Below the pieces are notes generated by a model. The model made no database searches, had not been told where the DNA came from, and saw only the letters and a program-made list of their open reading frames with translations. Shown here one piece after another: positions 42,214 through 58,743 of a DNA stretch of 64,000 bases. The DNA comes from Altererythrobacter sp. (lineage in GTDB: Bacteria > Pseudomonadota > Alphaproteobacteria > Sphingomonadales > Sphingomonadaceae). The stretch is from positions 1 through 64,000 of the forward strand of contig JAPSJS010000001.1 in NCBI GenBank assembly GCA_031178065.1, given 5' to 3'. Each line of letters opens with the position of its first letter. Position 1 is the stretch's first letter. The position numbers were made by a program, and so were the translations under genes.

Positions 42214-42287
42214 TGGAGCGGGTGAAGGGAATCGAACCCTCGTCGTCAGCTTGGGAAGCTGCTGCTCTACCATTGAGCTACACCCGC
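42214..42287 (-). tRNA. tRNA-Gly(CCC)
   Basis: On the minus strand a 74-nt tRNA with acceptor GCGGGTG pairing with CACCCGC, D-arm GCTCAATGGTAGAGC, anticodon loop TTCCCAA (anticodon CCC, glycine), T-arm GAGGGTTCGATTCCCTTC and an encoded CCA end. The outermost anticodon-stem pair is G-A. No duplicate of its 3' end is visible at the phage side. Confidence 0.93.
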
Positions 42288-42418: not shown

Positions 42419-42640
42419 CTAGCGTGGCAATGGCCCGATCCACTGCGCGCAGCTGCCGCACTTCGTGCAGCGGAAGTGGTCGAGCGCCGAATGCAGGTTC
42501 TTCGGCCATCCTTTATCGATGAAGCGGCAGAGCACCGGCCAATAAGGCAGCGTGTTCTTGTGTCCGCAGTAACAACGGACATCGATGTCCACGCGGAACC
42601 GCGAGAAGTCGCTCATCGACCGGATGACTTTGGTGCTCAT
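42419..42640 (-). CDS. Small zinc-ribbon-like protein
   Basis: 73 aa with two Cys knuckles, RCYCGH near residue 23 and CTKCGSC near residue 58, the layout of a small zinc ribbon; the middle (YWPVLCRFIDKGW) is otherwise unremarkable. No family recognised. It is divergent from the SRAP gene, and the 75-bp gap between them holds an SOS box 45 bp from its start, so it may be damage-inducible too. Confidence 0.55.
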   Translation of the reverse strand: MSTKVIRSMSDFSRFRVDIDVRCYCGHKNTLPYWPVLCRFIDKGWPKNLHSALDHFRCTKCGSCAQWIGPLPR

Positions 42641-42684
42641 GCCGCCATATTGAGAGCATCAACGCGAGTCGGCGCAAGCGGTTT

Positions 42685-42699
42685 GTTCCGCATTCGTTC
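42685..42699. promoter_or_regulatory. lexA box: Alphaproteobacterial LexA (SOS) box
   Basis: GTTCCGCATTCGTTC is an exact GTTC-N7-GTTC direct repeat, the LexA-binding form of alphaproteobacteria. It lies 17 bp before the apparent start of the SRAP gene, a family tied to the SOS response, and 45 bp from the divergent zinc-ribbon gene. Confidence 0.75.
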
Positions 42700-42715
42700 T
42701 CAAAGGAGCTCCGCC

Positions 42716-43321
42716 ATCTGTAACCTTTATCGCGCCTCCCGCTCGGTCGAGGAGATCGCCCGCCTCTTTCGCGTCGAGAGCACGATCGGCAATGCGGCCG
42801 AGGAGGTCTATCCGAAGTACTCGGGTTTGGTGATTGCCGAAGGACGGCTCCGCACCATGACGTGGGGATTCCCGCGCGAGCAGATCAGCAAAAAGACCGG
42901 CAAGCTGCTTAAGCCCACCGCCGTCAACAACGCCCGTTCGGACCAGCTCGTGAATCCATACGGCATGTGGCGCGACAGTTTCGAGCGCCGGCGTTGCCTG
43001 ATCCCGCTCACCGCATGGGCCGAAGCCGAGGGGTCCAGTGGTTCCATGACCCGCACCTGGCTAAGCCTGCCCGATCAGCCGATCTTCGCCTGCGCCGGGA
43101 TCTGGCGCGGCAGCGACGAGTGGGGCGACTGCTATTCGATGGTCATGACCGACGCGGTCGGGCCTGCGGCCGAGGTCCACGACCGAATGCCTGTCATCCT
43201 TCGGCCGGAGGATTACGACGTCTGGCAACATGCCGCGCCCGACGACGCACGCTCCCTTTGCGTCGGCTACACCGGCGACCTCGCAATCGACCGCACCAGC
43301 GCGCCCTGGCGGCCACGCTAG
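42716..43321 (+). CDS. SRAP (SOS response-associated peptidase, HMCES/YedK family), apparent AUC start
   Basis: 201 aa. The family acts on abasic sites in single-stranded DNA through an N-terminal Cys at position 2. Here CNLYRASRS is preceded by ATC, not ATG, yet AAAGGAG lies seven to eight bases before that ATC, exactly where a start is expected. Other active-site segments are intact: NNARSD (Asn/Arg), TAWAEAEG (Glu) and VHDRMPVIL (His). In-frame TTG further upstream would bury the Cys internally. So either AUC is used, with low efficiency, or the start codon is mutated or misread. An SOS box lies just upstream. Confidence 0.8.
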   Translation: MCNLYRASRSVEEIARLFRVESTIGNAAEEVYPKYSGLVIAEGRLRTMTWGFPREQISKKTGKLLKPTAVNNARSDQLVNPYGMWRDSFERRRCLIPLTAWAEAEGSSGSMTRTWLSLPDQPIFACAGIWRGSDEWGDCYSMVMTDAVGPAAEVHDRMPVILRPEDYDVWQHAAPDDARSLCVGYTGDLAIDRTSAPWRPR

Positions 43322-43864: not shown

Positions 43865-44177
43865 CAGCTTCCTCCTCGACCGGCACCGGCTTATCCGGCG
43901 CGTTGGTGATTTCGGTCTCGAGGGGGCGCTCATCGCCGCGCGCGGTCGAGCCGAAGTAGTAGTTGAAGGCGATCGTCGCGAGCGCGAACAGCTGGCCCAG
44001 CGCGAACACGACGGCGTCTTTCGCATCGGGCGTCGTCTTGCCCGCCATCAGGAAGAACGCCCCGCCGGCCGCGAACCCCAGGGCCAGCAACGCGAGGATG
44101 AATCGCGCCGTGGTCGGCGACAGCAGCCGGCGGAACAGCTCGCGCCAGAACTCGCCGGAGGGGAGAAGCCGCCTCAT
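43842..44177 (-). CDS. Holin-like protein, two transmembrane helices
   Basis: 111 aa: helix 1 (ARFILALLALGFAAGGAFFLMAG), helix 2 (AVVFALGQLFALATIAFNYYFGS) and an acidic C-terminal tail. FNYYFGSTARG matches a common two-helix phage holin or holin-like motif. It overlaps the endolysin stop (ATGA); it would time pore opening for the endolysin. Confidence 0.75.
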   Translation of the reverse strand: MRRLLPSGEFWRELFRRLLSPTTARFILALLALGFAAGGAFFLMAGKTTPDAKDAVVFALGQLFALATIAFNYYFGSTARGDERPLETEITNAPDKPVPVEEEADVDLASR

Positions 44178-44797
44178 GCTTCGTTCCTCGAGACAGTGCC
44201 GCCGCTCATCTTGGGCAGCGGCACGTTCGTCGCCGGCAGCGACGCCGGCCAGCGGCAGCCGAGCGCGCGGCTCTTGGCGATCGGCATGATATTGACCGCG
44301 TTCGACTGATTGCCGCCGAGCACGTAGTAGTTGGTCGCGCTCTCGCCGACGAGGAACCCGACGTGGCCGCCGCCGTTCCGGCCAAACACGACGATCGCGC
44401 CCAGCACCGCCTTCGACGTCTTGCCCCAGTCAAGCCAGGCCTTCGCCCGCGCGAACAGTCCGCCCTTCGGATAGGGCAGGCCGGCCGCGTCGATGCAATG
44501 CGCCACGAAGAAGCCGCACCAGGGTGTTTCGTCATCGTTGAACCAACCCGCGCCGAGCCGCGCCCAGCCCTTCGAGATCCAGCTGTTATGCTTCGGCCCC
44601 ACGATCTCGCGCTGCCCGATCAGCTGCCGCCCGATCGCCACCCACACCGGTTCCGGCCCCGCGGCCGCCGGCGGCGACCAGGTGCCATCGATCGCCGCCA
44701 TGACGAGCTCGTATTCGCTCTGGCCGATCTTGCTCCCGTCGGTCAGCCGGGCACCACGCCAGGCGCGCATGAATGCATCGTGGTCGATCTTGCTCAT
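44174..44797 (-). CDS. Phage endolysin, CHAP/NlpC-P60-like (TIGR02594 type)
   Basis: 207 aa cysteine peptidoglycan hydrolase. The core runs from residue 50: WVAIGRQLIGQREI, NDDETPWCGFFVAHCI (catalytic Cys), GAIVVFGRNGGGHVGFLVGE (catalytic His). An N-terminal helix-rich part (about 1-48) resembles a small binding domain. No signal peptide, so release depends on the holin encoded next. ATGA overlaps on both sides. Confidence 0.82.
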   Translation of the reverse strand: MSKIDHDAFMRAWRGARLTDGSKIGQSEYELVMAAIDGTWSPPAAAGPEPVWVAIGRQLIGQREIVGPKHNSWISKGWARLGAGWFNDDETPWCGFFVAHCIDAAGLPYPKGGLFARAKAWLDWGKTSKAVLGAIVVFGRNGGGHVGFLVGESATNYYVLGGNQSNAVNIMPIAKSRALGCRWPASLPATNVPLPKMSGGTVSRNEA

Positions 44798-45682: not shown

Positions 45683-47635
45683 CTATGCGTCGATCGGATT
45701 GGCGTCTTTGATGACTGCCGTGCTGCCGGCGATCCCGCTGGCAGTGACGATGTATTGCGCCTTGCCGCCGCTGGAGGGGCTGGCGTACCAGCCCTGGTCG
45801 CCGCGGGTGACCGCGCCGCTCACCGGATGAACTGCCTCGGACCAGCGGACCTTTTTCGTACCGTTGTAGACGGTCCATTCGCCGGCGGCCGGGATTGCGA
45901 CGCCTACGCTTCCGTCCGGCCTCAAGCCGAGCAGGCTGGGGGCACTGGCCGTGTTGGTGTTCTGGCCGGCGACACCGCCGCCCGTCACGTTTTCGGAAAC
46001 GCCCATCACGCCGTAGCCGTTCGAGCCGTTGATGCCCTTGTACGCGGGCCGGTTGGCGCTAAGCGGCGTCTGCACCCGCGTGATCTGCGATCCCGTACCA
46101 CCGGAATCGCGATAGCCTTGGTGGCCAATGATGGTCGGGCGCGTCGCTCCCGACGCGTCGACACGGCGGGCCGTGCCGACCGCATTTGGATCGTAGCCGA
46201 TGATGTATGGCACGCCGTTGCAGTCGATCGAGTTCTCTACGCCGGTATCGGAGATCCACGTGTCGTCGCCGGTATCCATCTCCGCATAGAGCGGGGTCAG
46301 TCGATTACGCAGGCCTCCCATACGGGCGAGCTTGAAGCCGGCGCCCACCCACTCGAGCGCCTGGTGCAACAGCACGATACCGTTCGAGCGGTACACGCTG
46401 TCGTCGAAGTAGATATGGCTGGCCTCGGCCTCGTAGAGAGTGCCTGCCACTTCGCCGCCGCCATAGAGCCGGCCGCCGACGATCCGGTTCGCGTTGGACC
46501 ATCCCGCGGCGCTCCCGCTCGAGAACCACATGCCGACCAGCGCGCGGAAGCATTCGTCCAGGTAGATCGAGTTGTAGACGCAGCCGCGCTCGGTCCCGTG
46601 GAAGCGCAGGCCCCGGGTCGGGTTGTACCAGCCCAGCTCGAAGTGCCCGAAATAGATGTTCTGCAGGTAGAACGCGAGACGGTCCTTGGTCCAGTCGTAG
46701 GTGTCCCAGGCAACGCGTAACCGTCCCGAGAGCCTCGGCCTGGCGAGCAAGGTCCCGACGGGCGCCACGTACTGCACACCGATCCCGTCATGATGAGGCA
46801 CGATCGTCGCCTCGCGGGAAACCGTCTCGCGCACGGCCGACAGGTCGAGCACGCCCGTCGTCCCGTATTCGCGGCGGTTGAACAGCAGCCAGGTGCCCTC
46901 GCGGGCAAGCACTTGCGCTTTGGCCTCCTCGATCGATTCCATCGTGGGCGCGCCGCCGACGGGGAAATCGTCGGGCGAGATGCCGATTTCGTGCATCTTG
47001 AGATAGGCCGAGCGGCCTTCGTATCGCGAAAGCCTGGTGCCCGCGGCCGGGTTCGCCAGATCCTCGCGCAGCTTTGCATCGCCGCCGCCCGTCCCATTCG
47101 CGGGAACGGGCTTACCGTCGGCATCGCCCGCGTAGAACTTGCCCGCAAAGGGCTCGCTAACAAACCTCTGCAGCTTCCCGCCGCGAAATTCGAGCAGATC
47201 GCCATCCTGCAGGTCGCGAAGGCTCGCGAACTGCGGCGCCGTCTCGCCTTCGGGCACCTTCGGCGCGCGGCCGATATCGTCGTCCTGCTCCTGCGCGATC
47301 ATCGCGTAGCGGTCGAGTGCCTGCTCGTGACTTTGCGCGGTGAACTTGCCGAGCGTCTCGTAGTCGGTCGGCTGCACCCGCGGTGTAAACCGGCGAATCG
47401 CCAGCAGCGTCTCCGCCACAGCGGGCGCCGTCACGGTCAGGGTCCCGCCGGTGTCGCCAACGCCCACGCTGACCGAGTAATCCACTCCATAGAGAAGCGT
47501 CGTGACGGTCCCATCAGGGGCAATGCGCGATGCCCGGATGAACTGCGGGCTGTTGTAGCGGAACGGCACCGGGAATTCGGTGGTGACGCCGTCCTCGATA
47601 TAATCGACCGAGGGATTCTGTGCGGGGACGGTCAT
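45683..47635 (-). CDS. Phage tail fibre/tailspike protein
   Basis: 650 aa. The first 150 residues are the T7 tail-fibre-type attachment domain (SVDYIEDGVTTEFPVPFRYNSPQFIRAS, IRRFTPRVQPTDYETLGKFTAQSHEQALDR). From about residue 230 the protein is beta-rich with repeats of Gly/Asn turns (NANRIVGGRLYGGGEVAGT), likely a beta-helix receptor-binding or depolymerase body. Such proteins determine host recognition. A 22-bp repeat lies just before its start. Confidence 0.8.
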   Translation of the reverse strand: MTVPAQNPSVDYIEDGVTTEFPVPFRYNSPQFIRASRIAPDGTVTTLLYGVDYSVSVGVGDTGGTLTVTAPAVAETLLAIRRFTPRVQPTDYETLGKFTAQSHEQALDRYAMIAQEQDDDIGRAPKVPEGETAPQFASLRDLQDGDLLEFRGGKLQRFVSEPFAGKFYAGDADGKPVPANGTGGGDAKLREDLANPAAGTRLSRYEGRSAYLKMHEIGISPDDFPVGGAPTMESIEEAKAQVLAREGTWLLFNRREYGTTGVLDLSAVRETVSREATIVPHHDGIGVQYVAPVGTLLARPRLSGRLRVAWDTYDWTKDRLAFYLQNIYFGHFELGWYNPTRGLRFHGTERGCVYNSIYLDECFRALVGMWFSSGSAAGWSNANRIVGGRLYGGGEVAGTLYEAEASHIYFDDSVYRSNGIVLLHQALEWVGAGFKLARMGGLRNRLTPLYAEMDTGDDTWISDTGVENSIDCNGVPYIIGYDPNAVGTARRVDASGATRPTIIGHQGYRDSGGTGSQITRVQTPLSANRPAYKGINGSNGYGVMGVSENVTGGGVAGQNTNTASAPSLLGLRPDGSVGVAIPAAGEWTVYNGTKKVRWSEAVHPVSGAVTRGDQGWYASPSSGGKAQYIVTASGIAGSTAVIKDANPIDA

Positions 47636-47669: not shown

Positions 47670-50090
47670 TCATTCTTCAGGACCTTCTGCCAGTGCGTTG
47701 CCGAAATCGGGGGCGCGGTCGGGCAGCGCGTCGCCGGGTTGCCAGAAATAGCGGGTGCCCTGCTCGCGCGCGTAGCGCTCCATGCGGGCCCAGCTCTTGC
47801 GGTAGTTGGGATCGATCGCTTCGTAGATCTGGTCCGCGAGCATCCGATCGAAGGCGGCGCGCGCGTACCAGAGGTTGTTGCCGGGGATGAAGCCCTTGGC
47901 CTCGCGCACGATCGCGCGCTCGGGATTGTCGGACGTCAGCAGATTGGCGATCCCCTGCGCGTCGTCGACCAGGGGCCCCGCCAGCGTCTGCGCGAAGCCG
48001 CCGCCGGCGCGGTTCTGCGCACTGTGGAGGAAGTCGCCGAAGATCCCGAAGCCGCCGCCTTGCAGGATCGCCGCGCCCCAGAACGCCGGATCATTCATCG
48101 GGCGCGGATCCTTGCCGCTCGCGATCGCCTTCAGCTGCAACGCCAGTGCGCCGGTCAGCGTCGTCCCGAGGATCAACCCGCCGGCATAGCGCGCCGCCAG
48201 GGCCGGCTGCATGGCGAGGATCTCGGCCGACTGCCGTAGGATGACGGACACGCCGAAGCTCTTGAACAGCAGCGCCGAGCGGCCGATCTCGCCGAGCACC
48301 GTCCCGCGCTCGAGCTTCGTGTTGAACAACGCGCGCGTCGCAAGGTCGGCCGTCGGCACGGCGACGTCGGTTTCCTCGAGGATCATCTCCATGAACCGGC
48401 TCGCCAGTTCCTGATCGTCGAGGTTGTGCGGGCTGATCCATTCGACGCCGCGGTCGACGTCCATTTTCGCGGTGCGCAGCTTGTCCCAGTCGCCGGCATC
48501 GATGCCGTAACGCTGCAGCGCGCCGCGCAGCTTCGGCTCGAGCGCATCGAAGCTCTTGCCTGCCTGTTCGGTATAGGTCGCCAGGCTTTCCATGCCGTAG
48601 ACCCAGCGCATCGCCTGGGTATGGCGCGACAGCAGCGACAGGCGCAGCACGCCGCTGGCGAGCCGGCGCGGGATCTCGCCCGTCAGCTCCTCCATGAGAT
48701 AGCGGCTCTGCGCGGCCGTGCGCCCCGCCCACTCCTCTGCGATCAGCCCGCGCCGCACCGCCAGCTTCTGATCCTCGATCGAGCCGGGTTTCATCAGCTT
48801 GACATAGTCGGGCAGCACGCTCGCGCGGCCGAGACCGTTGAAGGCGCGCCGCGCGTCCTGGAACGCGAAATCCGACGCCGCCGTGAGATACGCCCCGCCC
48901 AGCTTGGTCGCGGTCTGGAATGCCCGCAGGCCCGAGAAGAACAGCGCCATCTTCTCGTTGCGCGGCGCGAGATTGGCGCCGCGATATTCGTCCCACAGAT
49001 CATCGATATCGTCGGATGCGGCTTCGGCAGCTTTTACCGCCTTGCTGTCGGGGCTGCGATCGAGCGCGGCCGACTGCTCGATCGTGCCCTTGACCCATTG
49101 CAGCGTGGCGGCGGGATTGGGACCCAAGACCTCGAGCGCCGCGATATCGCGCGCCATGGTCTCCATGTGCCCCATCATCGTGTCGTAGGCGGTGCCGCTG
49201 CCAAACCGCTCGGCATAGGCCATCCAGTCGTCGGCGCTCTTGAACACGAGGAACCGGCCCTCGGCGCGCTGGTTGGCGAGCGCCCGCCCCGCAGCTGCCC
49301 CCGGCGTCCGCTTCGACCACCCGTTCGTGCGGATCGTGTCGTAGACTTCGACCAGCGCCGCCTCGAGGCTTTCGCGCGTGAACGGCCGCCCGGTGCGCTG
49401 GTCGACCATCTTCTCGAGATCGAGCCGCGGCAGGATCTCGGCGCGCCACGCTTCGAACCCGGCCTTTCGCACGCTGCGCCAGTCGTGGCTCTGCGGCAGG
49501 CCCCAGTCGGCACGGAATCCGATATCGCCGCCGGCGCGGTTGAACCGGACCCGCAGGCTCTCGGCCGTGCGCCGCCACGCTTCCGCGAGCTCGCGCGCGG
49601 CATGGTTGCCCGTGTTCTCGCCGAACAGCTCGCGCACCATGTCCGTCAGCTGCGCGCGCTTGCGCACCTGGCCGAGCAGGTTGGCCGAATGCTCGGCGAG
49701 CACCTGGTCCATTTGCCGGTGCGCCTGGCCGAGGATTGCCTTGCGCCGCCCCTCAACGTTCGAATAGCGCGCCCGCGGATCGTGATCGATCAGCGCCGGC
49801 CCGGCCTTCGGCGCGATCGGGCCGCCGTCGCCTCCGCCATAGGCCTGCAGGTCCCGCGCGATCCGCGCCCTCGTCTTGATCGTCCGGCCGGCGAGGAATG
49901 CCTTGCGCGTCACTTGCCGCTCGAGCGCCTCGAGCACGGCCGAGGAAGCCAGCGCCTCGGCGCTTTCGCGCGATCCCGTGCGGCCGTACTCCTCGAGCAG
50001 CTCCTCATAGAGGGCGCGCGCCTCCGCCGCCTGCTCGGCGGGGATCTTGCCATCGGCCTCGAGGCCGGGAAGGCACGCGCCCAGCGACAC
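47670..50090 (-). CDS. Large internal virion protein (806 aa)
   Basis: No catalytic motif seen. The protein is helix-rich and charged, with long stretches such as QVTRKAFLAGRTIKTRARIARDLQ and a hydrophobic segment near residue 690 (YAGGLILGTTLTGALALQL). Length, position before the fibre gene and composition match the largest ejected internal proteins of podoviruses. The track ORF begins at 50327, but the 95-aa gene occupies that DNA; GTG 50090 overlaps its stop (TAGTG), so I start there. Confidence 0.7.
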   Translation of the reverse strand: MSLGACLPGLEADGKIPAEQAAEARALYEELLEEYGRTGSRESAEALASSAVLEALERQVTRKAFLAGRTIKTRARIARDLQAYGGGDGGPIAPKAGPALIDHDPRARYSNVEGRRKAILGQAHRQMDQVLAEHSANLLGQVRKRAQLTDMVRELFGENTGNHAARELAEAWRRTAESLRVRFNRAGGDIGFRADWGLPQSHDWRSVRKAGFEAWRAEILPRLDLEKMVDQRTGRPFTRESLEAALVEVYDTIRTNGWSKRTPGAAAGRALANQRAEGRFLVFKSADDWMAYAERFGSGTAYDTMMGHMETMARDIAALEVLGPNPAATLQWVKGTIEQSAALDRSPDSKAVKAAEAASDDIDDLWDEYRGANLAPRNEKMALFFSGLRAFQTATKLGGAYLTAASDFAFQDARRAFNGLGRASVLPDYVKLMKPGSIEDQKLAVRRGLIAEEWAGRTAAQSRYLMEELTGEIPRRLASGVLRLSLLSRHTQAMRWVYGMESLATYTEQAGKSFDALEPKLRGALQRYGIDAGDWDKLRTAKMDVDRGVEWISPHNLDDQELASRFMEMILEETDVAVPTADLATRALFNTKLERGTVLGEIGRSALLFKSFGVSVILRQSAEILAMQPALAARYAGGLILGTTLTGALALQLKAIASGKDPRPMNDPAFWGAAILQGGGFGIFGDFLHSAQNRAGGGFAQTLAGPLVDDAQGIANLLTSDNPERAIVREAKGFIPGNNLWYARAAFDRMLADQIYEAIDPNYRKSWARMERYAREQGTRYFWQPGDALPDRAPDFGNALAEGPEE

Positions 50091-50377
50091 TAAATCACCG
50101 CGTCCACAGCGACCTTCTGGCCCTTGGCGAGCGTGCGCAGCTCGACATGCCCGTCGGGCCAGTATTCGCCGCCTGTGGCATCCGCCGGATCCTCGCCAAT
50201 CCGAACGCGGCATCCGCCGAAAGCGGCAATCCGGTAGACGCCACCGTCGGCGATCGCCGGCGAGATCGCGCCATCGAGAACCACCACCGCGTCGCTCACC
50301 TGCCCGGGCATATACCCGGTGCCCCACCCTGCGGCGTCTTTCGGCCGAAACCCGTGAAACGTCATCTCGATCGCCAT
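50090..50377 (-). CDS. Small phage protein (95 aa)
   Basis: Beta-rich, no family recognised: FHGFRPKDAAGWGTGYMPGQVSDAVVVLDGAI, then a Gly-rich WPDGHVELRTL. AAAGGAAG precedes its ATG. It sits between two internal virion genes and overlaps the following GTG; role unknown. Confidence 0.6.
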   Translation of the reverse strand: MAIEMTFHGFRPKDAAGWGTGYMPGQVSDAVVVLDGAISPAIADGGVYRIAAFGGCRVRIGEDPADATGGEYWPDGHVELRTLAKGQKVAVDAVI

Positions 50378-50395
50378 CGTCAGCTTCCTTTCCGC

Positions 50396-50417
50396 GCTAC
50401 CGCTGCGCTGCTTGAGC
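50396..50417 (+). promoter_or_regulatory. Phage 22-bp repeat, copy D, inverted orientation
   Basis: Plus strand core CTACCGCTGCGCTGCTTGAG matches the other copies at 19 of 22 positions but points against the genes. It lies in the 46-bp gap between the 1043-aa and 95-aa genes. Confidence 0.5.
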
Positions 50418-50423
50418 GCCTGT

Positions 50424-53400
50424 TCACATCAGGCATTTGCGCATCTCCTCGATGCCGGCCCGCTCGGCCGCGAGCTCGGCCTCGATCTCGGCCACGGTGC
50501 GCGGCCCGCGGCCGTCGTCGAGATCGAAGGTCGGTTGGTCGGCTGCATCGAACAGGCCGAGGCCCATCTCGCCGTCTTGCGCCTGGCCGGTCGCATTCTC
50601 GCCGCGAAGCGGAGCATCGGCGCGCAGCTGCGCTTCCTGCCGCCGACGCGCGGCGATCGCCGGATCTTCGGCTTGCGCACGGATATCGTGCCAATCGCTC
50701 TCGGCGACCGCTTTCACGCCTTCGCCGGCATCGGAATCGAAAGCCCGCGCGGCACCTTCATCGGGCGCCGGCGGGCCAAAGAGTCCTGCGGCCTCGGCCG
50801 CGTCGCGTTGTGCTGGGGTTAGTTGAGCGTCTTGAGCATCGTCCGGCCGAGCTCGGCCGCGCGCGCGTTCCGCGCCCGCGTCTCGGCCGTCAGCCGCTCG
50901 TCTTTCGCCGCCTTCTCCGCCCGCTCGACCTTCGCGGTCAGTAAGCTCGCGGAACTCGGCTTCGAGGAGATCATAGTATTCGTCCTCAACTTCGAAGAAC
51001 GCATCGGCGCGCGCCTCGTCGAGCTCGCGGCTTACCACGTCGAGCAGGTAGGGCACAAGCGACGCCGGATCTTCCGGCATGGCAGCGAGATCGATCGGCG
51101 GCAGCGCGCCGTCGCCATCGGCATAGCGCGCGACGATATCCTCGATCTCGCTCATCAGCAGCGGCGGCAGCCCGAGGTTCTCCGCGGCGCTGTCCCATTG
51201 CGCGCGCATTGCGTTCCACCTGGTCGCGGCGGCCGCTTCGTCGATTGCCGCCAGCTCGCCACCATTCGGACCGCCGGTTCGCGGAGCGGGGCCCGCGTCG
51301 AAGCTGGACAGAACGCGCTCGCCCCGCGTCGCGCGATCCATGGCCTGCAGGAAGTCGGTCTCGCTCGGCCGCGGCGTGGTTTCGGGCGACCCGAAGTATC
51401 CGGCTTCCCAAGCCAGCTCCGCCGCTTCGTCGAGCGACCGGCCGCTCGGCCGCAACAGCGGACCCACCCCCGGCACGAACCGCGCCATCGCCCCGGTATT
51501 CCGTAGATCGTGCCCCTTGGTGCCGAGCTTGCGGCCGCCTTCGTCAAGCCCGTCATAGGCGAGGCCGCCATTGCGAGCGACGAAGCGCACCAGGTCTTCC
51601 GGCTCCCGCGCCGTCGCGGCGCGCGGCAGCCTGGCGAAGCGCCCCCGCGCCGTCCGCCGCAGCTCGCCGAGATCCGCAAGCCGGTGGAGCCCTTCCCGCA
51701 GCGCCGCCGGACTGGTGCCCAGCTCCCGCGCCAACTCGTCGACGCGATTGAGCGAAGGCCCAGCCTCGCGATCGGCGACGGCGACACGCAACCGATAGAG
51801 CAGGTCTTCCGCCGGGTCGCGGCCGACTGCCTCCGCGGCAAGCCGCGCCTGTTCGATCCGCCATTCGGTGTCGCTGGCGAACAGGTCGCGCTTGAGCTCC
51901 GGCGGGTCGGGCTCGAACCGCACCGGCAGCGAATCCTCGCCGGCAAGCCGCGCTTCCTCCACGCCGATCAGGATCTCTTCCGCGTCGAGTGCATCGTCGA
52001 TCGCTGATCGCGCACCGGCCGCGGGGCTCGGCGCGGCGCCGGCAACCGTGCGCGATCCCATCTTGCGGTCTGCCCAGCGCACCAGCTCGGCCGCCGTCAC
52101 CACATCGTCGAACACGGCGCGGTTCGCCCGCACCGATGCGCGCGAGACGAGCGATCCGATCGGCGTCTCGCCGGTCGCGCGCAGCACTTTGACCGCGTCG
52201 CGCAGGCCGAGGAAGTGCGCGAGGTAGACCGTGCCATCGCTGACCGGCACGCCGGCCTCGCGCAGCGCAGTTGCGTTTGCCTGGGTGAAGGTCTGCATCA
52301 CCCGGTCCTGCACCGCGCCGTCGGCGCGCTTGGCGAGGATCGCCGCACGGCTCTCGCCCGTGTTGCCGAACGTGCGCTTGTAGAACTCGACCCACGTATC
52401 CTTGACGAACTGGTACCGGCCGTAGGCGCTCGACGTCGCCGCCGCGGCCGTATCGTCGCCGCCGCTCTCCGCCACCCGGTTGCGGGCGAGATAGCGCCCC
52501 ATGTCGAAATCGCCTGTAACGGCCGCAGAGGCAACGTCAGCCGGCCGCGTGGGGGCGAGTGCCGCCAAACGGGCCGCTTCGCGCTCCACGGGCACGATAC
52601 GGCCGTTATCGAGTGCTTCCATGGCTTCCGCCAACCTCGCCGCGTGCGCGTCGCGGGCGGCATAGGTATCGACGAACGGGCTCGCCGCGTCGATCTCCTC
52701 GGCGCGGGTCAGCACGTTCACCGCGGCCTGTTGATTGGGCGTCAGCGTGCCGGCCGGGTTGGCCTCGGCCAGGGCGCGGGCGACGTCGCGGGTGACAAGC
52801 CGGCCGTCGATCGCATCGCGCAGCGGCGCGGCAGCGCGATAGGCGGCGCTGTCGATCTTCGGAGCGATCTCGACACCACCCCGGATGACGCCAGCGCCGA
52901 CGCCGGCGAGCGCAATGTCCTGCGCGGCTTCAGCAACGCCGTATTCCTCACCCATCCGCGCGTAGGCCCGGCGGTTGTCGAGCGCCTGTAAGCCCTCGAC
53001 CGTGGCGCCCAAGGCGGCTTCTGTCAGCACGCGCTCTGCGATCGTTTTACCCCACCCGCCGAAAAGCAGCGTGTAGGCATTGATCGGATCGGCGAGGCTC
53101 CCCGCAGTCCCGCCTGCGAACTGCGCCACAACCGAAGTGGCGCCACGCGCGCGCGCAAGTGTGGCCTGATCCTCGTCGCGGCCGCCGTTGCGACGATAGG
53201 CCTCGCGCTCGAACTCTTCCCGCGTCGCCGGCAAGCCTTCGATGCCGAGCCGCTGCGCCTCGCGCCACACCTTGTCCCAATCGGGCATGCCGAGCGTTTG
53301 CGGGCCGATCCCGAACACGCCGGGCGCCCCGTGGTGCAGCGCGCGCCGATCGACACCCCGCTCGACCAGTGCCTCGATCACCGGGCGATATGCCTCGGCT

Positions 53401-53555
53401 TTACGCAAAAGCTGGACGTCCTCGACCCGATCGACCTCGACCCGCGTGCTCGCGGCAAACTGGTCCCACAGCGACGGCTCCGGCCGCGTGTCGGCCGCCG
53501 GCGCATTCTCGCCTGCAATGATTGCGTTGCGCTGAAAGCGATGATGCTCGCTCAT
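50424..53555 (-). CDS. Internal virion protein with transglycosylase-like domain (1043 aa)
   Basis: Very long helix-rich protein. Around residues 360-400 (RNRVAESGGDDTAAAATSSAYGRYQFVKDTW) it has the Glu-Ser and GRYQF segments of phage SLT-type lytic transglycosylases, which open peptidoglycan during DNA ejection. Later parts include a winged-helix-like stretch (LNRVDELARELGTSPAALREGLHRLADLGELRR, about 650) and a long charged C-terminus. ATG 53555 overlaps the previous stop (ATGA). Best compared with the muralytic ejection proteins of T7- or BPP-1-like phages. Confidence 0.72.
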   Translation of the reverse strand: MSEHHRFQRNAIIAGENAPAADTRPEPSLWDQFAASTRVEVDRVEDVQLLRKAEAYRPVIEALVERGVDRRALHHGAPGVFGIGPQTLGMPDWDKVWREAQRLGIEGLPATREEFEREAYRRNGGRDEDQATLARARGATSVVAQFAGGTAGSLADPINAYTLLFGGWGKTIAERVLTEAALGATVEGLQALDNRRAYARMGEEYGVAEAAQDIALAGVGAGVIRGGVEIAPKIDSAAYRAAAPLRDAIDGRLVTRDVARALAEANPAGTLTPNQQAAVNVLTRAEEIDAASPFVDTYAARDAHAARLAEAMEALDNGRIVPVEREAARLAALAPTRPADVASAAVTGDFDMGRYLARNRVAESGGDDTAAAATSSAYGRYQFVKDTWVEFYKRTFGNTGESRAAILAKRADGAVQDRVMQTFTQANATALREAGVPVSDGTVYLAHFLGLRDAVKVLRATGETPIGSLVSRASVRANRAVFDDVVTAAELVRWADRKMGSRTVAGAAPSPAAGARSAIDDALDAEEILIGVEEARLAGEDSLPVRFEPDPPELKRDLFASDTEWRIEQARLAAEAVGRDPAEDLLYRLRVAVADREAGPSLNRVDELARELGTSPAALREGLHRLADLGELRRTARGRFARLPRAATAREPEDLVRFVARNGGLAYDGLDEGGRKLGTKGHDLRNTGAMARFVPGVGPLLRPSGRSLDEAAELAWEAGYFGSPETTPRPSETDFLQAMDRATRGERVLSSFDAGPAPRTGGPNGGELAAIDEAAAATRWNAMRAQWDSAAENLGLPPLLMSEIEDIVARYADGDGALPPIDLAAMPEDPASLVPYLLDVVSRELDEARADAFFEVEDEYYDLLEAEFRELTDREGRAGGEGGERRAADGRDAGAERARGRARPDDAQDAQLTPAQRDAAEAAGLFGPPAPDEGAARAFDSDAGEGVKAVAESDWHDIRAQAEDPAIAARRRQEAQLRADAPLRGENATGQAQDGEMGLGLFDAADQPTFDLDDGRGPRTVAEIEAELAAERAGIEEMRKCLM

Positions 53556-55492
53556 CGCGTATCACGCACGCGGATGCGATAGGTGCGCCCGTCCTTCCGC
53601 TTCGCCACTTCGCCGGATCCGCTGAAGAACTCATACCAGCCATCGCCGACTGCCACCGGCGTCAGCCGATCGAGATCCGCCCGGCTCCCATCGGGATTGA
53701 TCGGCGCCTTGTCGGGATTGGCCCTATTGAACCGCGCGACCGCGTTGACGAAGCCGTTCGCCGTCACGCCTCCGGGCAGGAGGAACCACTCGCCCGTGCC
53801 GCCCCAGCGCTTGATCCCGCCGCGCTCCTCCGCGCCGGTGCCGGTCGCGCCCAGCGCCCGCTTGTAGGCTTCGCGCATCGCCTGGTGCGCCAGCGGCATC
53901 TCCCCGCGCGAGATCTGCGCGGCGAGGATGTTGCGCGCGATATCGCGCACCGCGTTGCGCTGGCCCGCGTCCATGAACCGCGTCGCCTGGTCGAACTGCG
54001 CGTCGACGATCAGCATGTTCTCTTCGACGTCGGGATCCTCGGGCTTGAGCATCCGCGGATTGCCCTTGAGAACCTCGCGCCCGTCGAGCGCCAGATCGCG
54101 GTAATAGCGCCGTAGCGGCGCGAGCTCCTGGAACACGACGTCGTCTGGCGCGACCATCTTCGCCACCGCCACCCGGTCGACCGCGCCGAAGTTGTCGAGC
54201 GTATCGAATGCGCCCTTGAGGTTGCGCTGTTCGTAGAGGTCGCGGATCGGACCCGTCTCGGCACGCGTCAGCGGCGGCACATAGCGTCCGGTCGCGCGCG
54301 TCTGCCGCCGCGCCCATTCGGTGCGTGCGGCGATCGTCTGCGGGTCCGACAGGTCGACCGGCGGCGCGCCGGACGTCCGCGCGATCGCGGCCGCCGGATC
54401 GGCCTCGAAGGCGCTGTCGAGCGCTCCGGCATGCGACTGCAGCCAGGCATACTCGCGATCCTCGCTCGCGGTGCGCTTCTCCTTGCCGGCAAGAAAGGCC
54501 GTCCGGTTCTGGCGCTCCAACGGCGTCGCCGCTTCGTAGATCTCCGCGAACCGGTTGTCGGCGCGCATCCCGTCGAGCTTGAGCGCGCGCGATTCGTCGC
54601 CGGCGGCGCGCACGGCCGCGATCGCGGTTTCGAACTGCGCGTCGTCGATATGGATGCCCTGGCTATGCGCTTCCTCGAGCACTTGCACCTGCTCGAGCAG
54701 CGCGGCCTCCGCCTCGGCCACCTCGCGGGCAGCCGCGACCTCCAGCTTGCGGATCCCGACGTCGGCGCCCGACAGCAGCGCTTCCACTTGCCGCGGCTCG
54801 AGCACGTCGTCGAATGTGCCGGCATCGATCAGTGCCCGCGCCGCCACCGGATCGGCGTCGATCCGCCCCTGCAGGAACGACACGGCCAGCGTCTGTTCGG
54901 CTTCCTGCTCGAGCCCGGACTTCACTTCATCCGAAGCGTCCATGCCGGCGATCATATCGAACAGCACCTGCCGCTCGCTCGCGTAATCCCCGGCGTTTTC
55001 GAGGCGGCGCGTCCGGTTCGCCGCGGCGGCGATCGCTTCCTGCGTTCCTTCGACCGCTACTTCGCCCTTGCGCAGATCTTCCCAGTCCGCCTCTCGCGTG
55101 CGGAACGCAGCGCCCCAATTGGCCATTGAAACTTCGAGGCTCTGGCGAACGCGGGGGGACGTGATCCCCTCGAGGAGCTCACGCGACCGCTCTTCATAGG
55201 CCTGCGCCATCCGCTCGGCATGGCCGGGCGCGTCGCTCTTGCGCCCTTCGCGCGCCTCGGCCTCCAATCCCTCGCGCAGACTTGCGAAGCCGACGTGGCC
55301 GCTGGCGTTCTCGGCATTCTCGGCAAGCCGCCGCTCGCTCGTATACTGCTCGACCTCTCGCCGATGCAGCGTGTCGCCGAGCTGCTCGACCGCACGGCCG
55401 ACGCCGGCGCCGAATGCATCGGGGCTGCCCGATGGCATCGGAGCGGCCGGGCCGACGCGCACACGGCGTTCGTATCCGGTCTCGGGCGGCAT
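53552..55492 (-). CDS. Internal virion protein, alpha-helical (646 aa)
   Basis: Alanine/glutamate-rich, helical throughout (EAEAALLEQVQVLEEAHSQGIHIDDAQFETAIAAV), with a small folded C-terminal part (GWYEFFSGSGEVAKRKDGRTYRI). Matches the long helical ejection-core proteins of podoviruses by position. ATG 55492 overlaps the stop of the upstream gene (TAATG); the track start at 55531 is less likely. Confidence 0.68.
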   Translation of the reverse strand: MPPETGYERRVRVGPAAPMPSGSPDAFGAGVGRAVEQLGDTLHRREVEQYTSERRLAENAENASGHVGFASLREGLEAEAREGRKSDAPGHAERMAQAYEERSRELLEGITSPRVRQSLEVSMANWGAAFRTREADWEDLRKGEVAVEGTQEAIAAAANRTRRLENAGDYASERQVLFDMIAGMDASDEVKSGLEQEAEQTLAVSFLQGRIDADPVAARALIDAGTFDDVLEPRQVEALLSGADVGIRKLEVAAAREVAEAEAALLEQVQVLEEAHSQGIHIDDAQFETAIAAVRAAGDESRALKLDGMRADNRFAEIYEAATPLERQNRTAFLAGKEKRTASEDREYAWLQSHAGALDSAFEADPAAAIARTSGAPPVDLSDPQTIAARTEWARRQTRATGRYVPPLTRAETGPIRDLYEQRNLKGAFDTLDNFGAVDRVAVAKMVAPDDVVFQELAPLRRYYRDLALDGREVLKGNPRMLKPEDPDVEENMLIVDAQFDQATRFMDAGQRNAVRDIARNILAAQISRGEMPLAHQAMREAYKRALGATGTGAEERGGIKRWGGTGEWFLLPGGVTANGFVNAVARFNRANPDKAPINPDGSRADLDRLTPVAVGDGWYEFFSGSGEVAKRKDGRTYRIRVRDTR

Positions 55493-55941
55493 TATATCCC
55501 CTCCCCGGCGCCGTCGCGCGCCTGCGCCCAATCGGATTGCTGGCCGAGATACTTGCTGCCCGCACCAAGCACGCCCGAGAGCAGCGCGAACCGCCCCTCT
55601 CGCCGCGCGAGATCACCCTCGCGTTCGAGCGCGCGGCTGCGGCCGATGCCCTGCCGGCGCAGCTCCATGACGTCGAGCGCCGCCTCGATCTGGCTTTGCC
55701 GCAGCGCGTCGAGCGCCGTGCCGCTGCCGCCCTCGAGACCGTTACCGACCTGGCTTGCGAGCTGCTCGCCGATGGCGCTGCGCGCTTCCTCGCGCACTTG
55801 CCGGATATCGGCGGCGGCCGCGCGCCGCTCCTCCTGCGCCTGCGCGTAGGCCGCGTCGCGTCGCGATTCGCCGGCCATCAGGCCGCCGACGCCCTGGACG
55901 AGCGATCCTGCCACCGCGAGGAAGGGAAGCGCTTGCGCCAT
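55492..55941 (-). CDS. Small internal virion/core protein (149 aa)
   Basis: N-terminal hydrophobic Gly-rich segment (LPFLAVAGSLVQGVGGLMAGE), a charged helix (AYAQAQEERRAAAADIRQVREEARSAI), and LLSGVLGAGSKYLGQQ at the C-terminus. This pattern is typical of gp14-like internal virion proteins of T7-group phages. ATGA overlap with the gp13-like gene. Confidence 0.65.
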   Translation of the reverse strand: MAQALPFLAVAGSLVQGVGGLMAGESRRDAAYAQAQEERRAAAADIRQVREEARSAIGEQLASQVGNGLEGGSGTALDALRQSQIEAALDVMELRRQGIGRSRALEREGDLARREGRFALLSGVLGAGSKYLGQQSDWAQARDGAGEGI

Positions 55942-56501
55942 CAGGCGATCCTCTCGAACAGCATGTGCGTCTCGCTCGCGCCGCCGAACTTGCGCAGCAC
56001 GTGCGCCGGCGTCATCCCGAGCAGGATCGCCCAGCGGACTTCGGGCGTGCGGTTGCGCGGCAGAAGCGCCGCCTTGCGCAGCTCCTCGCCCGTCACGTCG
56101 GGCATGGCGTCGATCGCCGGCTCGACGTCGCAACACCGCGCCAGCAGCTCGAGCCGCTCGAGCCCGCATTCACGGATCTCGCCCTGAATGAACCTGGTCA
56201 GCGGCAGGTGCCACTTGCCGAGATCTCGGCCGAGCAGCGCCCAGGCTACCCCCTGCCGATCGGGGAAGGTCTCGTTGATCCCGAAGCACGCAAGGATGCG
56301 CCCGGTGTCGGGCGTGCGCGCGGTCCACGCCACCGGTTGATCGGCCAGATGGCTCGCCTGCGCGTAGTCGCACTCGCCGGAAATACCGAGCCAGAGCCGC
56401 TGGCTCTGCTGCCGCTCGATCGTCGCGAGGTCGATCGGGTCCAGGTGCCGGATATCAAGCGCCTCATGCAGCGAAGCGGTAGGCGGACAAGGATCAAGCA
56501 T
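55941..56501 (-). CDS. gp13-like / GNAT-fold phage protein (DUF2833 type)
   Basis: 186 aa, with FGINETFPDRQGVAWALLGRDLGKWHLPL, the segment typical of T7 gp13-like proteins (DUF2833), which look like degenerate acetyltransferases, and a C-terminal RCCDVEPAIDAM. In T7 it is an accessory internal virion protein. Its first codons lie inside a copy of the 22-bp phage repeat, a double use of the same bases. Confidence 0.7.
   Translation of the reverse strand: MLDPCPPTASLHEALDIRHLDPIDLATIERQQSQRLWLGISGECDYAQASHLADQPVAWTARTPDTGRILACFGINETFPDRQGVAWALLGRDLGKWHLPLTRFIQGEIRECGLERLELLARCCDVEPAIDAMPDVTGEELRKAALLPRNRTPEVRWAILLGMTPAHVLRKFGGASETHMLFERIA
56462..56483 (-). promoter_or_regulatory. Phage 22-bp repeat, copy B (inside gp13-like gene start)
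   Basis: Minus strand core CTACCGCTTCGCTGCATGAG, within codons 7-13 of the gp13-like gene. It differs from copy A at a single position over 22 bases. Confidence 0.55.
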
Positions 56502-58743
56502 CGGCCGAGCTCACGTCGACGCCCAGCACGCCCAGCGTGATCGTCGCCGGCATCGGATCGTCGCTGGTCCAGGTCAGTCGCCCGTCACGGTCGAACTCGG
56601 CCTCGACAAGGCCGTCTGTGTCGCCTGTGTAGAGCGGAATCTGTTCGTCCATGCGCTCGCCGTCGCGGCGCAGGATCACTTCCTCGGTAACGCCGCCGGG
56701 GACGCTGACTTTCAGGCCGAGCGTCTCGAGCACGCGCGTCACCGCCTTCACCAGGCGCTGGCGCAGTCCCGCCGTGCTGCCCTGTCCGTCGCGCAGTTCG
56801 GGCCGCATTGTCGTTGCGGTCGCGGTGTACGGCAGGCCGACCATCACCGTGTAGTCGAACGCCGGCACTACGTCCGCCGGGAGCGTCAACTTGCCGTCGG
56901 CCGAGACCTTCAGCCCTGGTATGACCACACCGTTCGCCAACACCGCTACGTCTTGCCCGGCGAGATGATCGAGGCCGGTGAATTCGCCGTCGTTCGCAGC
57001 CGCGGCGATCCGCACGCCCCCGTCGACGTAGAACGATTCCGCGGGATCGTTGCCGAGCTCGCGCCACGCCGCCTGTTTCCAGATCTCGCGCACCGTCGCG
57101 CCGGCGCCGTTCTCGCGTTCGACCAGCACCCACAGATCGTCCGTCTTGTTGTCCGCGCCGACCACCGCCACTGCCGACAGCACCCGGGCGCCGCCGCCCA
57201 GGCGATAGCGGACGAAACCCTTGATCTCGCCGCGCGTCTTGGGATGAACGATCAGCTGCCCGTCGGCACGCACGCCGAAAACCAGCGAATAGGGATTTCG
57301 CTGATAGGCGAGCTGCAGCACGCCGCCGTGCGTGATATGCCGGCTCGTGGCGTTCAGATCCGGCGCATCGTAGCGATCGCGGCCGAAGTCGTAATCGGCC
57401 GCGCGGCACCGCCGCCCCCCACGCTCGACGAAGATCGTCTCGGTTCCCGTCTGCACCGGAAACACGCGCTCGCTCCCGTAGAAACTCTGCGGCTCGGCCT
57501 CGATGTTGGTGCCGGAAAATGCGCTGCCGGTGTTGAACGGGCCCACGGCCAGCTCCCGGCTCGCCGTGCCGACCAGCATCCGGCGATCGCCGCTAACCCA
57601 CAGCGGAGGATCCTCCAGCCCGATCGTGCGCCGGAAGCCGAGATCGGCTTCGATCCGGCCGCCGGCCGTGTGGGTATCGAAGTTGACCCGACCTCCGCCA
57701 TAATCGCTCGCGACCGAACCGATGATGTCGAGATCCTTAAAGTGGATCAGCCGGCCCTTGTAGAGCGTCACCAGCTGCGGCCATCCTTCGGCGTCCGAGA
57801 ACGCCTGGTGCGCCCACTTGTAGCTGGGTTCGGTCGTCAGGCTGTCCGGCAGGCGGCGCTTGACCGTCGCCGAGACGACGCTCGAGCTGGTGAAGCCGGT
57901 AATCTGCACGACGCCGAAGCGATCGTGGATATAGGTCCACTTGACCCCCCACGGCCCCTTGTCGTTCATCAGGTCGTTGGTCAGCTGCCCGTCGTAATAG
58001 CTGCCTTCGCTGTGCACCGGCTCGACGCTGCCCGTCGTTCCCGCCGTGGCGGCCTGGTACACGCGGCCGCCGTTGCGCACCTTCTCGCCGACCACGACGT
58101 CTTTCATTCCCGGCTCCCACTGGGGAATGTCCGCGAAGTCGATCGCCTCGAGGCGAAACAGCGCGCCGACGTGGCCCTCTTCGAAGATGGGGGAGTTCGC
58201 GGTCAGCGTGATCGCGCCGGTGGCACCGCTGGCACTCACCGTGCGCGCTTCGTCCGAATTCGTGTCGAGGAACGGCCCGTTGAGCAGCTCGATCGTCTCG
58301 AACGTGAAATTGAGCGGTGAATCACGCCGAAGCGCCGCCGGGGCATGCGAACCGTGATCGATATACTGCCGATCGAAGCTCTGCTGCAGCGACAGCTCGG
58401 GCGCTTCGGCCGCAACATACGGCGTCGTCACTTCATAGGCGACGCCGGGGCTCGTCTCGATCCGCGCGCCGTTGGTGAAGAAGCGCACGGCCAGGTCGCT
58501 CCATTCGACGACGTATTCCTGGTCGATCGAGCGGCGGAAGGCGGTCAACCATGCGGCCGTTTCTGCCGACGGCCGGATGAATTCGAAGCCCTGCCGCTTC
58601 ACCAGCGGGCCTTCGTTGATCGCGAGGAAGTTCTCGCAGGCCTTGAGGCCGAACGCGTACTGGTCCGTGTCGACCCGCCCGTCGAGGTGCGGATCGAGCT
58701 CGCCGGCCATGAAGCCCGTCAGAAGGTGGCGCCTCACCACCAT
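56494..58743 (-). CDS. Tail nozzle protein, gp12-like (tail tubular B)
   Basis: 749 aa with the family opening LTGFMAGELDPHLDGRVDTDQYAFGLKACENFL, then GPLVKRQGFEFIRP, and a beta-rich body with GVRADGQLIVHP. It forms the tip of the short tail through which DNA leaves. It overlaps the adaptor gene by 10 bp and the gp13-like gene by 8 bp. Confidence 0.82.
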   Translation of the reverse strand: MVVRRHLLTGFMAGELDPHLDGRVDTDQYAFGLKACENFLAINEGPLVKRQGFEFIRPSAETAAWLTAFRRSIDQEYVVEWSDLAVRFFTNGARIETSPGVAYEVTTPYVAAEAPELSLQQSFDRQYIDHGSHAPAALRRDSPLNFTFETIELLNGPFLDTNSDEARTVSASGATGAITLTANSPIFEEGHVGALFRLEAIDFADIPQWEPGMKDVVVGEKVRNGGRVYQAATAGTTGSVEPVHSEGSYYDGQLTNDLMNDKGPWGVKWTYIHDRFGVVQITGFTSSSVVSATVKRRLPDSLTTEPSYKWAHQAFSDAEGWPQLVTLYKGRLIHFKDLDIIGSVASDYGGGRVNFDTHTAGGRIEADLGFRRTIGLEDPPLWVSGDRRMLVGTASRELAVGPFNTGSAFSGTNIEAEPQSFYGSERVFPVQTGTETIFVERGGRRCRAADYDFGRDRYDAPDLNATSRHITHGGVLQLAYQRNPYSLVFGVRADGQLIVHPKTRGEIKGFVRYRLGGGARVLSAVAVVGADNKTDDLWVLVERENGAGATVREIWKQAAWRELGNDPAESFYVDGGVRIAAAANDGEFTGLDHLAGQDVAVLANGVVIPGLKVSADGKLTLPADVVPAFDYTVMVGLPYTATATTMRPELRDGQGSTAGLRQRLVKAVTRVLETLGLKVSVPGGVTEEVILRRDGERMDEQIPLYTGDTDGLVEAEFDRDGRLTWTSDDPMPATITLGVLGVDVSSADA

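Follow-up and report, generated by a model that had tools for sequence, protein, structure and literature searches.

What does a ribosome do with a gene whose catalytic cysteine must stand at the very N-terminus, when the codon in front of that cysteine is ATC? The question is raised by a SRAP protein gene (P0001, 42716-43321, plus strand, 201 codons, Pfam SRAP match) in the window, by which we mean the whole 64-kb stretch of Altererythrobacter sp. DNA analysed here. The frame from 42716 (ATC TGT AAC CTT TAT CGC) is open until TAG at 43319-43321, and the catalytic Cys codon, TGT at 42719-42721, directly follows the ATC at 42716-42718 (plus strand), as read directly from the sequence. A preliminary description had proposed AUC as a rare non-canonical start, with a newly silenced gene as the alternative. 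We think it likely that the locus is a functional, prophage-borne, SOS-inducible SRAP gene with a genuine AUC start, with transcription gated by LexA and translation throttled by a codon against which initiation factor IF3 discriminates.

The protein is a typical member of its family, matching PF02586 with 88.7 bits (curated cut-off 27.1). AlphaFold models it with confidence (mean pLDDT 92.5), and the best PDB matches of the model are SRAP proteins, among them YedK crosslinked to abasic DNA. Cys2, Asn72, Glu103 and His155 are invariant in a 16-relative alignment; by motif reading they appear to correspond to Cys2, Asn75, Glu105 and His160 of E. coli YedK, the roles of which have been described (PMC9436759). 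The window protein thus shares with YedK and human HMCES the fold, Cys2 and the Asn/Glu/His active site, and differs from them in being encoded by a prophage, in having an apparent AUC instead of AUG start, and in the LexA box directly upstream. The SRAP gene with ATC before its catalytic Cys is real, as first described, with the frame intact and the active-site residues present. SRAP chemistry requires an N-terminal Cys2, so translation must begin at the codon preceding this Cys; the Cys directly after ATC is invariant, and we infer that this ATC is the initiation codon and is read as fMet.

The gene lies in a 41.6-kb prophage of this marine-type bacterium, bounded by 37-bp att repeats in tRNA-Gly. 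The attL core (42251-42287), an exact direct repeat of attR (G000:C81:83856-83892; G000 is the genome of the window), is the 5' half of tRNA-Gly(CCC) (42214-42287, minus strand), and the window part of the prophage (42251-64000) continues to C81:83892. The prophage contains an integrase, a repressor-like regulator, primases, terminase, connector, tail and lysis genes; the window ends before reaching terminase, repressor and integrase. Inside it, all on the minus strand, are an endolysin or tail lysozyme-like gene (44174-44797), a tail fibre gene with a T7-type N-terminus (45683-47635), and virion and tail genes (phrog_684, 4067, 992 and 376; 47670-58743). SRAP shares the interval between the att sites with phage genes; it occupies the attL end, past the lysis genes, and is encoded on the other strand from the late genes. 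Between it and attL there is only a small ORF (42419-42640, minus strand), divergent from and upstream of the SRAP promoter, with paired cysteines of a zinc-ribbon-like kind and no Pfam or PHROG match. This is where a cargo gene with a promoter of its own would sit. Phage and plasmid SRAP genes of the phrog_1599 type are likewise cargo of mobile elements; the ones that protein similarity retrieved from IMG/VR have ATG or GTG starts, unlike the AUC of the window gene. Elsewhere in the same genome, a prophage remnant (L082:3165-3251; G000:C35:27164) contains a truncated N-terminal SRAP fragment starting with ATT TGT. The fragment directly follows a lysin-like gene, and a tail fibre gene nearby is 44% identical to that of the window.

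The SOS (LexA) box, GTTCCGCATTCGTTC at 42685-42699 (plus strand), is identical to the lexA box of the same genome. In the 64-kb window, the pattern GTTC-N7-GTTC by itself is not above chance (one found, 1.67 expected); over the whole genome it occurs 88 times, compared with 32 in a reversed control. The exact 15-mer of the SRAP promoter recurs only once genome-wide, directly 5' of lexA, while recA has a GTTC-N7-GTTC box 77 nt upstream and rmuC is also boxed (lexA, recA and rmuC were recognised from their translations). Two orthologues keep the box, together with about 16 bp on its left side, amid divergent sequence. The position near the SRAP start, the identity with the genome's own lexA operator and the same-place conservation in two orthologues argue that the box is real, and the sequence evidence is strong that SRAP transcription would be gated by LexA. 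The orthologues have TATATT as the spacer, probably a -10 element, from which a leader of some 15 nt, starting with the Shine-Dalgarno (SD) sequence, would result. In the window, the latter is AAAGGAG at 42702-42708 (plus strand), 7 nt before ATC, so that the perfect box and the correctly placed ribosome site of the preliminary description both stand. A counterexample to the idea that SOS control always accompanies AUC is another prophage SRAP gene (L242), whose ordinary ATG is preceded at 30 nt by a perfect SOS box. That idea was dropped, a weak start being no necessity under SOS control. The window's genome has a second SRAP gene (L144, G000:C39:28001-33500), with an ATG start; some 300 nt upstream of it stands a GTTC-N7-GTTC box, and beside it is a small divergent zinc-ribbon-like ORF resembling the one at 42419-42640.

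Judged by sequence, non-canonical starts recur among SRAP genes. We performed an SD-blind census of start codons in 331 genomes of the host family; a hand count among the roughly 165 matches listed gave mostly ATG, six GTG, five clear ATC and three ATT, and no TTG, CTG or ATA. A strict pattern searched at the level of the class was found in 1/385, the window itself, and nowhere outside the host family. Full-length ATT genes with GGAGG close upstream are present in Sphingopyxis 113P3, Novosphingobium silvae, Blastomonas natatoria and Porphyrobacter GA68; a mobile ATT group is made up of four records, three near-identical and the fourth at 87%, and dN/dS between two ATT genes is 0.19 (dS 0.42). 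The Sphingopyxis 113P3 gene sits on a 243-kb mobilizable plasmid, the record of which puts the CDS start at that very ATT. ATT also starts a full-length, divergent SRAP copy (G238), and ATC starts the SRAP gene of Croceicoccus marinus plasmid pCME4A9II, which is annotated from a point 19 codons further 5', as well as an IMG/VR prophage gene from another SRAP subfamily (L188), which has an open frame upstream without a canonical start and was the sole SRAP gene among 63 IMG/VR matches. There are, in addition, broken remnants starting with ATT or ATC (L082, L090). The annotation of NZ_CP019604.1 (L100) places the SRAP start 19 codons before ATC-Cys, where it would bury the catalytic Cys; this is likely an error.

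Several other candidates were rejected: L081, considered as an SOS-boxed ATC SRAP gene, is a BlaI-type promoter region; L077 and the census match G190:C1 are not SRAP; G092 (ACT) lacks the active-site His; G220 (AGG) is truncated; and twelve prophage matches with AUH before Cys-Gly-Arg-Phe were all due to chance.

Genes with AUC or AUU starts (AUH genes) are set apart by their ribosome-binding sites. GGAG at proper spacing a few bases upstream was found in 8/8 AUH against 5/47 ATG/GTG SRAP genes (Fisher p=1e-6), and pairing with the anti-SD has a duplex energy of -11.0 against -4.7 kcal/mol (p=3e-4), both p-values being inflated by relatedness, as the eight AUH genes represent about four lineages. 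Two of the eight first surfaced in an SD-conditioned search, and both are also in the unconditioned census. An N-terminus devoid of canonical starts across species, together with this strong, optimally spaced SD, places the window gene beside infC, the gene of IF3. IF3 acts against initiation at any codon but AUG, GUG and UUG; the initiator of infC itself is AUU in E. coli and AUC in Streptomyces, and Streptomyces sigR, with a GUC start, is repressed by IF3 (PMC5472188). The window gene resembles infC in having an AUH initiator of the kind that IF3 discriminates against; infC is, however, autoregulated by its own product, whereas for SRAP we propose that IF3 would act in trans. sigR belongs to a stress response and is held at a low level by its non-canonical start, as we propose for SRAP, but the codon, the gene and the stress are different, and the evidence is experimental there and inferential here. 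YedK is scarce in E. coli (0.176 ppm in the table of PMC9841429).

In the host genome, the infC region (G000:C37:60220, L145) reads CAGGAG-ACCGCCCC-ATA-GCC-CGT, with a stop 8 codons upstream. GGAG stands eight bases before ATA, the sole other in-frame candidate is a TTG without SD, and host infC thus appears to start with AUA; AUH initiation and its control by IF3 therefore very likely operate in this host. An AUC start is not general for enzymes with N-terminal Cys: in a small sample of 17 genomes, the window's included, the GlmS-type Cys2 pattern was preceded by ATG in 18/18 cases.

AUC might be the start and yet have been selected against start ambiguity, not for throttling. ATG before TGY always makes AUGUG, with an overlapping out-of-frame GUG, which ATC and ATT turn into CUG and UUG; competition at AUGUG has been documented in E. 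coli, with yedK among the AUGUG genes (PMC9841429), and ATA, absent from the census matches listed, may be missing because before TGY it would create an out-of-frame AUG (ATATGY). Most SRAP genes nevertheless keep ATG, UUG is itself a start codon, and AUC should lose more in yield than it gains, so that we regard this explanation as unlikely. The Cys codon after the start is TGT in 6/9 AUH and 7/48 ATG/GTG SRAP genes (p=0.003, inflated by relatedness), and TGTAAY after AUH gives CUG-UAA or UUG-UAA in the overlapping frame.

The alignment of orthologues at the start codon, proposed as a check in the preliminary description, bears on the remaining alternatives. Altererythrobacter sp. C41 (L034/G003) and Pelagerythrobacter aerophilus (L035/G001), which belong with the window's genome to one genus group, share its order of box, strong SD, ATC and Cys. 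In both, an in-frame TAG is found 4 codons upstream of ATC, with no ATG, GTG, TTG or CTG in between, and phage-type genes, though of other kinds, are found near their SRAP genes. Both orthologues are started by a mechanical ORF caller at a TTG encoding Leu4, with loss of the catalytic Cys; the window gene has CTT at this codon. dN/dS is 0.22 between the window gene and L034, and 0.09 between L034 and L035 (both ATC, dS 0.49), i.e., selection on these genes is purifying. Close relatives with GTG or ATG starts (G002, G006 and G001:C1) indicate that AUC is not required for SRAP function.

A dying copy, in which ATG has mutated to ATC, would agree with the GTG or ATG starts of sister copies and with the ATT or ATC carried by the truncated remnants L082 and L090. 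The same ATC, box and SD are nonetheless found in two other species at dS 0.5-0.9, dN/dS is low, the frame and active site are intact, and intact ATT genes reside on plasmids; decay would also produce ATA and ACG at least as often as ATC or ATT, and neither is among the census matches listed. The conserved ATC, box and SD, combined with low dN/dS, make a fresh lesion or an error unlikely, and the suggestion of a newly silenced gene, improbable on this evidence, is not supported. Still less probable is translation from TTG at 42683-42685, giving an 11-residue N-terminal extension. This is an in-frame canonical start in the window, where the other upstream candidates are more distant codons; it overlaps the LexA box, lacks an SD and would bury the catalytic Cys, and the orthologues have TAG between that position and ATC. 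A base-calling or assembly error at 42718, conceivable as one assembly of this strain was read, can practically be dismissed, as ATC is also found in independent assemblies of two other species. What had been put forward as a rare start is thus supported as a working one by orthologue conservation, a strong and well-spaced SD, purifying selection and the existence of other AUC/AUU SRAP genes.

A tree built from 54 SRAP proteins puts the window gene next to the GTG-started G002 as its sister, and the ATC genes of C41 and P. aerophilus with a different GTG copy. The starred branches force at least three changes of the AUH label, five being most parsimonious, and the label is not clustered on this tree beyond shuffles. 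By segment identities the window gene is a mosaic, with codons 16-33 closest to the ATC/GTG copies of C41 and P. aerophilus, and codons 34-90 closest to G002 (0.88-0.90 versus 0.59-0.69), which suggests that recombination may move promoter, ATC and N-terminus together. An alternative history is an ancestral ATC lost twice.

Under the reading that we prefer, a functional gene started by AUC, LexA bound to the box would block SRAP transcription until DNA is damaged. After derepression, the short leader with its strong SD would set AUC in the ribosomal P site, where fMet-tRNA would initiate despite the third-position mismatch; removal of Met would expose Cys2, which would form a thiazolidine crosslink to abasic sites in single-stranded DNA. 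Initiation would be inefficient because IF3 rejects AUC, and SRAP would stay scarce even with the promoter on. The comparative evidence is strong that AUC initiation with a compensating SD would be the sole reading to yield an active SRAP. Removal of Met is expected, and low yield and sensitivity to IF3 would follow from established work on IF3 discrimination. It is plausible that AUC limits the dosage of a reactive DNA-crosslinking protein, and scarcity may be a trait favoured by selection.

Our literature search, mainly of freely readable papers, found none on non-canonical starts in SRAP genes. To our knowledge, experimentally characterised AUC/AUU initiators are very few, infC being the standard case. 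Gene finders usually exclude such starts, and the SRAP case suggests that annotation can miss or misplace the genes that use them. The obligatory N-terminal Cys of SRAP fixes the start position, so the initiator codon can be read without proteomics, and several SRAP lineages appear to pair AUC or AUU with a compensating SD. More tentatively, and with somewhat less than even confidence, we suggest that AUC or AUU, paired with a compensating SD, arises again and again in mobile SRAP genes as an IF3-sensitive translational lock on a DNA-crosslinking protein, to which the host's own lexA operator would be added in this prophage lineage, resulting in two-key control by damage and by initiation fidelity. 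The family would make it possible to test whether selection caps dosage via starts that IF3 discriminates against.
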